Assembly (NCBI RefSeq): GCF_039729145.1 | Contig: NZ_CP155793.1 | Location: forward strand, 992,001-1,056,000 | Origin: Microbacterium sp. SY138 | GTDB taxonomy: Bacteria > Actinomycetota > Actinomycetes > Actinomycetales > Microbacteriaceae | Direction of reading: 5' to 3' | Length of the DNA: 64,000 nucleotides | Shown: piece after piece, positions 50,264 through 55,368 of the stretch | How the letters are laid out: each line of letters starts with the position of its first letter | How positions within the stretch are numbered: the first letter of the stretch is position 1 | Position numbers and translations under genes: made by a program | The notes under the pieces: model-generated | Database searches by the model: none | Told to the model about the DNA's origin: nothing | Seen by the model: the letters and a program-made list of their open reading frames with translations, nothing else

Positions 50264-51313
50264 GTGACCGCCAACGATGCACTCGCCCTCCACCGCCGCG
50301 CCGTCGTCGCCGACGCACACAACGATCTGCTCTGCTCGGTGGCGAGCCGCCCCGCGGACGAGTGGTCGGACTACTTCCGCGCCCAGTGGCTTCCCCAGCT
50401 GCACGAAGGCGGTGTCGGGCTGCAGGTGCTGCCCGTGTTCATCGATGACGTGTATCGCCCGGAGGGGGCGCTGCGTCGCACCCTCCGCATGATCGAGGCC
50501 GCGCATCGGCTGGCGGAGGGCAACGCAGACACCGTCGGTCTGTGCCGGGATGGCGACGACATCGATCGGGTGATCGGCGAGGGCCGCATCGCGCTGGTGC
50601 TCGCCCTGGAGGGGATGCCCGGCATCGCCGACGACGTCGAGCTCCTCGAGACCGTGCATCGCCTCGGGGTGCGGATCGGCTCGGTGGCGCACTTCGGGCG
50701 CAGCGCGTTCGCCGACGGCAGCGGCGAAGACGCCGCAGGCAGCAGGCTGACGCGGACCGGGGTCCGAGCGCTCGCCGAGATGGAGCGCATCGGCATGATC
50801 TTCGACATCAGCCACCTCGGAGCGGGCGGGGTCGACCACGTGCTCGAGCTCGCCACGCGCCCGGTCATGGCCACGCATTCCTCGGCCCGTGCGCTGTTCG
50901 ACCACCACCGCAACCTCACCGATGCCCAGATCGCCGGGGTCGCCGAGAGCGGGGGAGTCGTGTGCGTCAACTTCTTCGCTCCGTACCTGCATGAGAGCGC
51001 GTACACGATCGACACACTGATCGACCACTTCGAACGCGTGGTGTCGGTCGCCGGAATCGAACACGTCGGGATGGGGCCGGACTTCGTCCGCGAAGTGCTG
51101 GAAGACACCACGGCACCGTGCTGCGTGCAGACGACGATCGAGGGCGTGCCGGCCGATCGGTACCTGCCGGGCCTCGAGGGCCCGGCAGGTCTCCCGCTCG
51201 TGACCGAGGCGCTGATGCGTCGTGGCTGGCGGGAAGAGGAGATCCTCGCCGTCCTCGGCGGCAACCTGCAGCGGTTCCTCCGATCCGGGCTCGGAGCCGC
51301 AGCCCTCGCCTGA
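50264..51313 (+). CDS. Peptidase M19 family membrane-type dipeptidase
   Basis: A 349-residue zinc enzyme. Metal ligands are in VVADAHNDLL (His19, Asp21), LALEG, FDISHLG and ATHSSARAL, in the order of renal-dipeptidase-like M19 enzymes. No signal peptide. It hydrolyses dipeptides, often with a D- or dehydro-amino acid. GTG 50264 with the leaderless TAGGCT. Confidence 0.9.
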   Translation: MTANDALALHRRAVVADAHNDLLCSVASRPADEWSDYFRAQWLPQLHEGGVGLQVLPVFIDDVYRPEGALRRTLRMIEAAHRLAEGNADTVGLCRDGDDIDRVIGEGRIALVLALEGMPGIADDVELLETVHRLGVRIGSVAHFGRSAFADGSGEDAAGSRLTRTGVRALAEMERIGMIFDISHLGAGGVDHVLELATRPVMATHSSARALFDHHRNLTDAQIAGVAESGGVVCVNFFAPYLHESAYTIDTLIDHFERVVSVAGIEHVGMGPDFVREVLEDTTAPCCVQTTIEGVPADRYLPGLEGPAGLPLVTEALMRRGWREEEILAVLGGNLQRFLRSGLGAAALA

Positions 51314-51374
51314 GGCTCCCGGCGTCCCCCTCCGCGGTCTTCGAGAGCCGCGGTCGACGAATCGGGAATGACTC

Positions 51375-51404
51375 TTGCTTTCAGCTGGTTCACAGCAATA
51401 GGCT
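51375..51404 (+). promoter_or_regulatory. Promoter of the leader-peptide / ABC exporter operon
   Basis: TTGCTT (51375-51380), 18 bases, TAGGCT (51399-51404). Transcription would start near 51411, giving a leader of about 215 bases before the first exporter gene. Confidence 0.5.
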
Positions 51405-51457
51405 GGTGGGCTGTCGCGCCAACCGGACGACATCGCCGAGCCCCTGAGGAGGACACC

Positions 51458-51523
51458 ATGACCACGATCGCCACCGCGCGGATCGCAGCTCTCGGCTCGA
51501 CCCCGGCGCGTCCGCTCTCCTAG
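51458..51523 (+). CDS. Probable regulatory leader peptide (21 residues)
   Basis: The ORF MTTIATARIAALGSTPARPL+S starts with ATG, six bases after a strong ribosome-binding site (GAGGAGG, 51446-51452), and stops at TAG 51521-51523. It sits in an otherwise gene-free 312-base gap between a promoter candidate and an ABC exporter. Its last codons repeat a 10-base sequence, GTCCGCTCTC (51510-51519), found again inside the downstream hairpin (51565-51574). The short length, strong translation signal and downstream structure suggest a regulatory peptide whose translation reports on ribosome stalling, as for bmrB ahead of bmrCD in Bacillus subtilis. Confidence 0.6.
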   Translation: MTTIATARIAALGSTPARPLS

Positions 51524-51545
51524 AGCCACCCCGCCCCTTCTTCGT

Positions 51546-51616
51546 CGGATACCGGACTCCACGAGTCCGCTCTCGTATCCGTCCCCCTCCGCAATCGCTT
51601 TCCATACGAAACTCGT
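51546..51616 (+). promoter_or_regulatory. Mutually exclusive RNA hairpins (candidate attenuator)
   Basis: Hairpin 1: CGGATAC (51546-51552) with GTATCCG (51575-51581), and GGACTC (51554-51559) with GAGTCC (51563-51568). Hairpin 2: ACGAGT (51561-51566) with ACTCGT (51611-51616), and TCGTAT (51573-51578) with ATACGA (51604-51609). They share bases so only one can form. Hairpin 2 ends next to the ribosome-binding region of the first exporter gene (start 51626). Confidence 0.55.
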
Positions 51617-51625
51617 CTGAGAGAC

Positions 51626-53557
51626 ATGTCTTCCTCGCCTTCCGTGCAGAATCCCTCGCCTTCATCGACCCTTTCCACTCCGGCCGCACTGTGGCGCCTG
51701 AAGCCCTTCGTGAAGCCCGTCATCTGGCGGCTCGCCGGCGGTGCCGCCAGCGCGCTCATCGCCGCCGTCATCGCCCTGATGATCCCGATCGTGCTCGAGC
51801 AGATCATCAGCGGACCCGTTCGCTCCGGTGAGATCAGCGCCATCGTCTGGGGTGCCGTCGCCGTCTTCGCTCTCGCCCTCGGCGAGGCCCTGATGGTGTG
51901 GCTGCGACGCCAGTTCGTGCTCAACCCCTCGACCGAGGTCGAGTACAAGATGCGCACCGAGCTCTACTCGCGCCTGCAGACCCTTCCGGTGTCGTTCCAC
52001 GACCGGTGGGGCTCCGGACAGCTGCTCAGCCGCATGATGCAGGACATCGGCCTCATCCGCCGCTGGCTCGCGTTCGGCCTCGTGCTGCTGGTCGTCAACA
52101 TCCTCACGATCATCATCGGCTCCGTGCTGCTGTTCCGCTGGCACTGGCTGCTGGGCACGATCTTCCTGGTGACCGCGATCCCGCTGTGGATCCGCGGTTA
52201 CCTGTTCGAGAAGCGCTACGGCGCGCTCACCCGTCGCAGCCAGGACCAGGCCGGCGACCTCGCCACGAGTGTCGAGGAGAGCGTGCACGGCATCCGCGTG
52301 CTCAAGGCGTTCGGTCGTGGCAAGCACGCTCTCAGCCGCTTCAGCCGCCAGGCCGAGACGCTGCGCGAGACCGAGATGAGCAAGGCCGGCGCGATCGCGT
52401 CGATCTGGTTCTGGCTCGACCTCATGCCGCAGATCGCCTTCGGTCTCAGCCTGATGTCCGGCATCTGGCTGATCTCCGTGGGGCAGATCGACGAGGCACA
52501 GCTGTTCGCCTTCTTCGCGATGGCGGTCGTGCTGCGGTGGCCCATCGAGTCGATCGGCTTCCTGTTCTCGTTCATGCTGGATGCGCGCACGGCGACCGAC
52601 CGCGTGTTCGACATCTTCTCGGAGACCAACACCATCACCGACCCGGAGAACCCGGTGCACATCGAGAACCCGCGTGGGGAGCTCGCGTTCCAGAACGCGC
52701 ACTTCCGCTATCAGGACGCCGGTGCCCACGAGCGGGATCTGCTCGACGGTATCGACCTGGTGCTGCGCCCGGGTGAGACCATGGCGCTGGTGGGCCTGAC
52801 CGGCAGCGGCAAGACCACTCTCACCACGCTGCCCACGCGTCTGTACGACGTGACGGGCGGCAAGGTGACGCTCGACGGTGTCGATGTGCGGGATCTCCCT
52901 CTCGCCGAGCTCCGTCAGCACATCGCCATGGCGTTCGAGGACGCGACACTGTTCTCGGCGACGGTCCGTGAGAACGTGCTGCTCGGACGTGCCGAACTCG
53001 ATGTGCACAGCGACGAAGGCGAGCGCGTGCTCCGCGAGGCCCTCGACGTCGCCCAGGCGTCGTTCGTCGACGCGCTGCCCGACGGCGTCGAGACGGTGAT
53101 CGGTGAAGAGGGGCTCAGCCTCTCCGGCGGCCAGCGTCAGCGGCTCGCCCTCGCCCGTGCGGTCGCGGCGAAGCCGAAGGTGCTCGTGCTCGACGACCCG
53201 CTGTCGGCTCTCGATGTCGACACCGAGGCCCTCGTGGAGGAGGCCCTGCGACACGTGCTCGCCGACACCACGGCCATGATCGTGGCGCACCGGCCCTCGA
53301 CCGTCGCCCTCGCCGACCGCGTCGCCCTGCTCGAGGCGGGTCGTGTGACGGCGGTGGGGACGCACTCCGAGCTGCTCAAGTCGAGCCGGCACTACCGCCA
53401 CGTCATCTCGAGCCTGGAGGCCGAGGAAGCGGCGCGCACCGGCGCGATCCCCGTGATCCGCGATGAGCAGGCCGAGATCGACGAAGAGGTCCGCGAGGGC
53501 CTCGGGATGCAGGCCGCCGACGAAGACCCGATCACCGAGAAGGAGGTGCAGCGATGA
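51626..53557 (+). CDS. Heterodimeric ABC exporter subunit with degenerate Walker B
   Basis: A 643-residue half-transporter: a six-helix membrane domain (about 30-320), then an ATPase domain with Walker [10 protein letters not shown], signature [14 protein letters not shown] and Walker [13 protein letters not shown]. The catalytic glutamate is Asp here, as in the degenerate-site subunit of exporters such as BmrCD and TM287/288. The gene overlaps the next by four bases (ATGA). It lies behind a leader peptide and hairpins, and is probably a multidrug exporter. Confidence 0.92.
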
Positions 53558-55368
53558 GCTCCGCCGTCACCGGAACCCAGAACGAGGATCGTTCCGAGTA
53601 CACCCGCGAAGAGAGCCGGGAGATCCGTCGTCGATCCCTCCGACTCCTCGGATCCCTGGTCAGCCCGTTGAAGCCGAGGATCGTCCTCGCCGCCGCGGTG
53701 CTGATCGTGTCGACCGCCCTCCAGGTCGCCGGCCCTATCCTCATCAGCATCGGCCTCGATCGCGCGCTGCCGGCGGCCATCGATCGGGCCGACTGGATGC
53801 CGACGTTCATGATCGGCGGCATCTATCTGCTGGCGGGTGCGCTCGCCGCCGTGCTGATCGCGTGGTACGTGATCATCGCGGCCAAGCTCACCCAGGCGGT
53901 GCTGCTCGATCTGCGCAAACGCATCTTCCTGCACACCCAGCGCCTGAGCCTGGAGTTCCACGAGTCGTACACGTCCGGGCGCATCATCTCGCGCCAGACG
54001 AGTGACCTCGACTCGATCAAAGAGCTCCTCGACGGCGGTCTGAACGAGCTCGTCTCCGGCGTGCTCTTCGGGCTCTTCACCTTCATCGCGCTGTGCTTCT
54101 GGGACTGGCAGTCGGGTCTCATTCTGGCGATCGGCGGCGTGCCGCTGTTCTTCCTGATGAAGTGGTTCTACTCGCGCTCGCAGTTGGTCTACCGCGAGTC
54201 GCGGGTGATCAGCGCGAAGGTGATCGTGCAGTTCGTCGAGACGATGACCGGCATCCGGGCCGTGAAGGCCTTCCGCAAGGAGCCGCGCAACGACAAGGCG
54301 TTCCAGGAGATCGCCGGTGACTATCGCGACGTCAACCGTCGCTCGATGCTGCTGTTCGGCACGTTCGAGCCCGGGCTCATGGGTGTCGCGGCCCTCGTGC
54401 TCGGAATCGTCGTGCTGTGGGGTGGTATCCGCGTCTCAGAGGGGGCGCTGACCGTCGGCGTGCTGCTGTCGGCGGTGCTGTATGTGCGCAACTTCTTCGC
54501 CCCGATGCAGGAGATCGCGATGTTCCTGAACTCCTACCAGTCGGCCACGGCCGCGCTGGAGAAGGTGTCGGGCGTGCTCGAGGAGGTGCCGACTGTTCCG
54601 GATCCCGAGAAGCCGATCGACCTCTGGGAAGCCCGCGGGCACGTGGAGTTCGACGAGGTGACGTTCGGCTACAACGGAGAGAAGACGATCCTCCCGAACT
54701 TCTCCCTCGACATCCCGGCCGGGCAGACGATCGCTCTGGTGGGCACGACCGGCGCGGGCAAGTCGACACTCGCCAAGCTCATCTCCCGGTTCTACGACCC
54801 CTCCGATGGGCGGGTCACCCTCGACGGCGTCGACCTGCGCTCGCTGCACCCGAAGGACCTCCGCCGCGCGATCGTCATGGTCACGCAGGAGGCCTACCTG
54901 TTCAGCGGGACCGTCGCCGACAACATCGCCCTCGGCAAGCCGGAGGCGACGCTCGACGAGATCAAGGCGGCGGCGCGGGCCGTGGGCGCCGACGGGTTCA
55001 TCTCGTCGCTCCCCGACGGCTACGGCACCGATGTGAACAAGCGCGGCGGTCGGGTCTCGGCCGGTCAGCGTCAGCTCATCTCGTTCGCCCGGGCCTTCCT
55101 CGCCGACCCGGCGGTGCTGATCCTGGACGAGGCCACGGCGTCGCTGGACATCCCGTCGGAGCGACTGATCCAGGATGCCCTGCAGACCCTTCTCAAGGAC
55201 CGCACGGCGATCATCATCGCGCACCGCCTGTCGACGGTCGCGATCGCCGACCGGGTTCTCGTGATGGAGCACGGACGCATCATCGAGGATGACACCCCTG
55301 CCGCGCTCATCGGCGGAACAGGCAAGTTCGCCCAGCTGCACGCGGCGTGGCAGGAGACGCTCGTCTGA
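53554..55368 (+). CDS. Heterodimeric ABC exporter subunit, catalytically competent
   Basis: A 604-residue half-transporter with six helices and an ATPase domain: Walker [14 protein letters not shown], signature [14 protein letters not shown], Walker [13 protein letters not shown] with the canonical glutamate. Its signature is altered (VSAGQ), so paired with the first subunit it gives one consensus and one degenerate ATP site, the classic asymmetric heterodimer. Followed by element D, a probable terminator. Confidence 0.92.

Follow-up and report, generated by a model that had tools for sequence, protein, structure and literature searches.

A putative ribosome-coupled leader ahead of a core heterodimeric ABC exporter in Microbacterium and other Microbacteriaceae

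A short open reading frame (ORF) with a strong Shine-Dalgarno (SD) sequence lies between a promoter and the genes of a heterodimeric ABC exporter in Microbacterium sp. SY138, and the presence of such a leader ORF ahead of an actinobacterial exporter of this kind is well supported by sequence comparison. We consider it probable, at roughly 0.6, that the ORF belongs to a cis-acting, ribosome-coupled leader of this core exporter, with a mechanism as proposed below. Comparison of upstream regions shows a conserved promoter, an SD-led ORF, a covarying hairpin (hairpin 1), a C-rich spacer and, in one clade, complementarity between the leader SD and the exporter start. From these features we infer that the ORF is translated and controls the exporter, that a held ribosome would raise expression, and that Rho and an antibiotic cue may be involved. 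Throughout, the window is the whole stretch of DNA that was analysed, 64,000 nucleotides from a host genome of 3.92 Mb in a single contig, and the promoter, leader features and exporter genes described here all lie on its + strand.

The two exporter genes, subunit 1 (51626-53557) and subunit 2 (53554-55368), overlap by four bases and each encodes a PF00664 (ABC_membrane) and a PF00005 (ABC_tran) domain, in agreement with the heterodimeric ABC exporter claimed in the first-pass annotation. Walker B of subunit 1 is degenerate; read from the sequence, an Asp follows its Walker B Asp and subunit 2 has a VSAGQ signature, which together indicate one degenerate site. Subunit 1 is 100% identical to a protein of Microbacterium maritypicum MF109, and PDB 8wcw is a sequence relative of it (E 3.8e-75). 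Subunit 2 also gives a weak Zeta_toxin (PF06414) match (24.6 bits against a cut-off of 22.3), which falls on the P-loop at the beginning of the ABC domain and is regarded as an artefact. An orthologue of the exporter was found in 291 of 295 genomes of the genus (E<=1e-180) and a match in 171 of the 199 genomes of the Microbacteriaceae draw (E<=1e-150); judged by these matches, the exporter is a core gene of genus and family. The upstream neighbour (50264-51313) carries a membrane dipeptidase M19 domain. Measured per 25-nt block, identity of the close clade to the window rises from about 0.3 upstream to 0.78-0.93 from the promoter onward, a jump which indicates that promoter, leader and exporter form one unit.

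Upstream regions were analysed at 199 loci, 112 from the genus (of its 291 matches) and 87 from other Microbacteriaceae. The latter were drawn from 168 non-genus matches, three of the 171 family-draw matches being in the genus, and distant members are under-sampled because the 199 loci came mainly from the tops of the score lists. All locus counts are of related, non-independent sequences. Exporter start codons were assigned by script and were shifted from the BLAST-based position in 37 of the 199 loci; promoters, and hence UTR lengths, were also assigned by script, and short-UTR loci were not individually checked by eye. The alignment of the close clade has 50 rows and omits L044, which is identical to another close locus in the leader region.

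The promoter candidate proposed earlier is present at 51375-51404, with a -35 hexamer TTGCTT (51375-51380), an 18-nt spacer and a -10 hexamer TAGGCT (51399-51404), followed by a conserved GGGCTG. Its pattern is conserved across genus and family: TTG-N18-21-TAnnnT occurs in 108 of 112 genus loci and 74 of 87 other family loci (shuffles 1.8 and 3.8). A sigma-70 consensus scan did not report the 51375-51404 promoter (0 found). Overlapping this sigma-A-like promoter is a second pattern, GGGAAT-N18-GTT at 51364-51390, which we take to resemble a sigma-R/sigma-H (disulfide stress) promoter; the form GGAA[TC]-N18-19-GTT is present at all 51 close loci, at 11 of 58 other genus loci and at 1 of 81 outside loci, with 0.25, 0.25 and 0.15 in shuffles. 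Other Microbacterium loci have an A/T-rich spot 6-8 bases upstream of the -35 TTG (0.65-0.72 A/T over three positions), a geometry presumably like that of WhiB7 sites. A PF02467 profile search of the genome found two WhiB loci, neither of them an ORF with an AT-hook, which we take as the criterion for WhiB7, and gave no recognisable WhiB7; to us the two genes look WhiB1- and WhiB2-type instead. Control by WhiB7 was rejected, as the regulator was not found in the genome.

The leader ORF (MTTIATARIAALGSTPARPLS) occupies 51458-51523 with 21 codons and a TAG stop, and is preceded by the SD region GAGGAGGACA (51446-51455), whose core GAGGAGG is at 51446-51452. The 21-codon frame and its strong SD are thus as first described, and they are conserved. 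Conservation of the frame was a check that the first-pass annotation had itself proposed, and all 50 close rows retain ATG, TAG and frame and have an invariant SD region, with a spacer that ranges from 94 to 156 nt. Among loci with a called promoter, a short ORF of this kind (12-50 codons, a strict SD and a position downstream of that promoter) was found at 101 of 109 in Microbacterium and at 59 of 81 in other Microbacteriaceae, as against 1.9 and 2.1 in dinucleotide shuffles. Pooled, an SD-led ORF lies between promoter and exporter in 160 of 190 promoter-called loci (3.9 in shuffles), a count that excludes nine loci (3 genus, 6 other family) at which no promoter was called. Leader codon statistics alone do not show translation. 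Of the alternative frames in the 50 close rows one is open in a single row and the other in all 50, and the leader has no third-position excess of the type found in normal coding sequence; given the second open frame and the missing excess, the case for translation rests on the SD, the start, the stop and persistence across the family.

Presence of the leader follows the length of the UTR. It was found in 158 of 166 loci with a UTR of at least 180 nt (101 of 106 in the genus, 57 of 60 elsewhere) compared with 2 of 24 shorter ones (0 of 3 and 2 of 21), and in these two, L076 and L079, the starts are possibly misplaced. Eight long-UTR loci have no strict leader; seven of them have an ORF under a relaxed SD or length rule, and one, L149, has none even so. 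Because the leader is tied to long UTRs and rare in short ones, it seems to be a cassette that is kept or lost in its entirety. At L069, L088, L090, L093, L172, L183, L187, L230 and other short-UTR loci the called promoter lies directly before the exporter; these leaderless orthologues are probable natural losses and useful controls. Outside the family, 22 of 41 non-family matches in the order had loci, 4 of which carry a strict-rule ORF at distances of 74-297 nt (the shuffle figure of 2.2 is for all 27 loci of that set). A leader in other families of the order is not accepted, since these distances are unlike those in the family and the promoter pattern was found in 0 of the 22.

The encoded peptides are diverse. 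Among 160 leader peptides little is shared except that the first codons are rich in Thr and Ile and that the second half is basic (Arg/Lys 0.146, against 0.058 in the first half). In 30 close leaders, pairwise divergence is 0.12, 0.177 and 0.13 at the first, second and third codon position, and codon differences between pairs number 682 synonymous to 2179 non-synonymous; no purifying selection on the peptide was seen in these 30 leaders. A conserved arrest peptide was rejected on that ground, and ribosome position may therefore outweigh one arrest peptide as the signal. A basic +X+ motif, which we take to be known from macrolide arrest peptides, occurs in 49 of the 160 peptides against 31.1 (sd 4.2) in shuffled peptides, relatedness not corrected; since the peptides are related and the leader in the window has no such motif, it is only a lead. 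It is very improbable that the leader senses charged tRNA in the manner of an amino-acid attenuator. Codons 2-5 often encode Thr or Ile, as such a device might require, but the window's leader has no series of regulatory codons for a single amino acid, the peptides differ among clades, and the target is an exporter and not a biosynthetic gene.

Leader nucleotides are nevertheless constrained, in a pattern unlike that of a conserved protein: third positions of the exporter diverge by 0.279-0.35, above all three leader positions, and this even, lower divergence of the leader indicates a constraint at the RNA level. The conserved segment could accordingly be read as a structured RNA, riboswitch-like or an sRNA, in which the ORF is incidental. 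Besides the similar divergence of the three codon positions, complementarity within the transcript speaks for such a reading. Twenty-one segment pairs were screened for complementarity in the close clade and two stand out; the counts of 49 of 51 loci given here and below are each nearer to one observation, because the sequences are related. The 5' UTR at 51405-51440 is complementary over 24 pairs to the 3' half of the leader (51491-51520) in the close clade (mean z -2.64; below -1.5 in 49 of 51 close loci), with one covarying pair, 51418-51507 (GC 30, GU 9, AU 10, AC 1), at which AU arises at three places in the tree. This pairing competes with a 5' hairpin (51408-51443; GGGC/GCCC and TGTCG/CGACA) just upstream of the leader SD, in which about 97% of cells are paired over 50 sequences with little variation. 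Folding of the 5' UTR gives a mean z of -1.40 over 101 genus loci, and the segment 51411-51640 is mildly more stable than its shuffles (z -1.32). Against a structured RNA, SD-led ORFs persist at loci where the sequence and structure do not, and Rfam 15 gave no match over the 64 kb at gathering thresholds or over 51350-51700 at E<=1; a known structured RNA family was rejected for want of a match, and we regard this reading as quite unlikely.

Downstream of the ORF, the first-pass annotation had drawn two mutually exclusive hairpins, of which only one is upheld by comparison. Hairpin 1 (51546-51581; CGGATAC..GTATCCG outside, CGGACTC..GAGTCCG inside) begins 22 nt past the leader stop, ranks first among 36-nt hairpins in the spacer (z -4.3 relative to shuffled sequence) and, instead of hairpin 2, is contained in the minimum-energy fold of the spacer. 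Over 50 rows 95.7% of its cells are paired, and changes on both sides of a pair occur in 22 cells compared with 5.7 (sd 2.0) in shuffled columns, a value reached in 0 of 500 shuffles; slid versions of the hairpin gave at most 5. Weaker measures, 5 pairs against 2.8 and 16 pair types against 13.7, were each matched by 17 of 500 shuffles. Parsimony on a tree from which the hairpin columns were left out assigns 15 double and 15 single changes that preserve pairing, and 26 that break it. Compensatory change, which had been named as a check on both stems, was thus found in hairpin 1 and not in hairpin 2. The letters of hairpin 2 are present (CGAGT/ACTCG and CGTAT/ATACG), but only 73.4% of its cells are paired over the 50 sequences, 497 of 500 shuffles pair equally or better, and one of its pairs fails to form in 47 of the 50; as an alternative structure it was rejected, its pairing not being conserved. 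Strong spacer hairpins (z below -2) occur at 54 of 101 genus loci against 6 of 57 other loci, a frequency which shows that they are not family-wide.

The earlier proposal was that of ribosome-mediated attenuation, in which the end of the leader competes for a partner inside hairpin 1. Its short leader ORF ahead of the exporter stands, while the switch by competition with hairpin 2 finds no support in covariation. The repeat GTCCGCTCTC on which the competition was based is present, with GTCCG at 51510 and 51565 and CTCTC at 51515 and 51570. Pairing of GTCCG (51510-51514) with CGGAC (51553-51557), however, is no better than in shuffles: 86.8% of cells are paired, the second pair is broken in 26 of 50 rows, and covariation lies within the shuffled range. 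Complementarity between the 3' half of the leader and the spacer is likewise at chance in the close clade (mean z -0.06), and competition between leader end and hairpin 1 is supported by neither measure. No intrinsic terminator was found by the standard pattern in 51000-52000, and hairpin 1 lacks a U-tract by that standard; a canonical intrinsic terminator in the window was rejected. T-rich stretches after the hairpin are at chance in the window's clade (at least 4 T in 6 of 51 loci, window included, against 5.0; at least 5 in 1 against 1.3) and near chance outside the genus (8 of 57 against 5.3). Other Microbacterium clades have at least 5 T in 7 of 50 loci against 0.3 in shuffles, and at least 4 in 19 of 50 against 5.4.

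These results bear on attenuation of the BmrB type, in which a stalled ribosome would let the leader end pair with the left arm of hairpin 1, so that hairpin 2 is freed and the exporter is spared termination. The layout resembles bmrB-bmrCD as far as the accessible part of its description goes (PMC4191407), the pairings can be drawn in the window, hairpin 1 is conserved, and hairpins in some sister clades are terminator-like; set against this are the unconserved hairpin 2, the leader-hairpin pairing no better than shuffles and the absent U-tract. Judged by sequence, the leader thus fails two defining features of the type, a terminator in the window's clade and a supported antiterminator, and we consider BmrB-type attenuation unlikely.

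A different pairing appears to mark the window's clade. The exporter start region TGTCTTCCTC (51627-51636, codons 1-4) is complementary over 10 bases to the leader SD at 51446-51455, and in the close rows 99.8% of cells of this 10-bp helix are paired. For the window, the minimum-energy fold and the centroid fold each contain this helix; over the close clade the mean z of the complementarity is -2.48 (below -1.5 in 49 of 51 loci). Exporter codons 2-4 read TC[T/C]-TCC-TCG in 49 of 50 rows, and codon 6 uses several synonymous codons; because the paired segments hardly vary, they show almost no covariation. Local sequestration of the exporter SD was not found in the consensus fold. When the 51 close loci were folded, mean openness of the exporter start was 0.326 against 0.466 with the upstream sequence shuffled, and was lower in 50 of 51. 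A mask representing a ribosome at the leader start raised openness to 0.484, with a gain above 0.1 in 37 of 51 loci, compared with 0.339 and 0.328 for masks at the leader middle and stop, neither of which gave such a gain at any of the 51. The modelled gain of the window itself is small (0.292 to 0.350), and it is not among the 37. For the non-close groups every second locus was entered, and 24 other genus loci and 19 outside loci were kept after length filters; openness was 0.488 and 0.505, with a gain above 0.1 at 6 loci and at none, respectively, and in these models the exporter start is not closed to begin with. Complementarity between SD and start is absent or weak in the other clades, whether measured with one choice of segments (mean z -0.23 and 0.30) or with that of the 21-pair screen (-0.79, with 11 of 50 below -1.5, and 0.16), and so it cannot be a family-wide mechanism.

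The spacer between leader and exporter (51524-51625) is C-rich and G-poor, with a skew, (C-G)/(C+G), of 0.387; of 6390 overlapping 102-nt windows across the 64 kb, 0.2% have at least as strong a skew of either sign. Spacer skew exceeds 0.2 at 94 of 101 loci in the genus and at 47 of 57 others, compared with 1 of 29 intergenic control regions as delimited by a crude ORF caller, and the first 120 nt of the exporter are similarly C-rich (0.245 and 0.247). Over the last 60 nt of the UTR, skew is 0.322 in the 166 long-UTR loci against 0.159 in the 24 short-UTR loci. Such a spacer would suit Rho, although composition is not proof of Rho action. The ORF might then do nothing more than shield the C-rich spacer from Rho or expose it, with no RNA switch, and any slowing of translation would alter Rho loading. 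Promoter, uORF and C-rich spacer are indeed the only family-wide features, the leader peptide drifts, and the higher skew of long-UTR loci fits. Shielding by itself does not account for the retention of hairpin 1 by compensatory change in the close clade, and the skew on which it draws does not by itself show Rho at work; we hold this account possible, if on balance doubtful.

The ribosome-coupled leader that we favour would work as follows. From the sigma-A-type promoter a transcript would be made with a leader of about 220 nt before the exporter, and the strong SD would load ribosomes so that the short ORF is translated, its peptide sequence being largely free to drift. The position of the ribosome on the ORF would set exporter expression. 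With no ribosome at the leader start, the SD in the window's clade would pair with the first codons of the exporter and close its start, and the untranslated C-rich spacer and early coding region would then favour Rho-dependent termination; in some sister clades, a hairpin standing where hairpin 1 does may cause intrinsic termination. A translation inhibitor that holds the ribosome at or near the leader start would open the exporter start and raise expression, a scheme like that reported for toiL of Escherichia coli (PMC12121999). That antibiotics are the actual cue we propose tentatively, at somewhat less than even odds. A broader reading, speculative and rather doubtful, is that of a translation-stress sensor across the Microbacteriaceae that operates without WhiB7: a sequence-agnostic uORF of which the position is kept and on which any stalled ribosome would be the signal driving the core exporter, with a read-out that is swapped between clades and a cassette that certain lineages have lost in one piece. 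The swapped read-outs would be an intrinsic-terminator hairpin in some Microbacterium, SD-to-start sequestration in the M. maritypicum clade, and Rho over the C-rich spacer throughout.

If the ribosome-coupled leader is borne out, it would extend the short list of multidrug-type ABC exporters under leader control by an actinobacterial, family-wide case, in a genome seemingly without WhiB7. The comparison also points to a short ORF upstream of the exporter in its many host genomes, and the loci at which the cassette is present, altered or lost form a natural series on the evolution of leader control when the peptide is not conserved. A search of open-licence papers found no description of this Microbacteriaceae exporter leader.

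Ribosome-coupled leaders are themselves a known kind, to judge from the accessible parts of the papers on BmrB (PMC4191407) and the whiB7 uORF (PMC11550727, PMC13236596). The whiB7/wblC uORF is, like the present one, an actinobacterial uORF upstream of a resistance function, and differs in that it controls a transcription factor (PMC11550727, PMC13236596, in the portions available). The mycobacterial MsRv1273c/72c is an actinobacterial heterodimeric ABC exporter with one degenerate site, as here; the available parts of that paper, which names PDB 8wcw, describe no leader control (PMC12038006). In bmrB-bmrCD of Bacillus subtilis, as here, a short leader ORF precedes a heterodimeric ABC exporter, a multidrug one in that case, and a hairpin lies in the leader region; according to the accessible text, bmrB has 53 codons, a terminator inside its 3' part and a demonstrated drug response (PMC4191407), whereas the present leader has 21 codons, a hairpin 22 nt past the stop, no U-tract and an unsupported antiterminator. 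For Escherichia coli toiL, the available part of its report describes how retention of a ribosome in the uORF frees the target start and thereby averts Rho-dependent termination (PMC12121999). The target of toiL-topAI is a toxin-antitoxin operon and Rho-dependent termination is reported for it, whereas here the predicted pairing is of the leader SD with exporter codons 1-4, clear in one clade only, and the composition is Rho-friendly. The two systems may be alike in that a region of the uORF would pair with the downstream start and, in our folding models, a ribosome held at the start of the uORF would open it.
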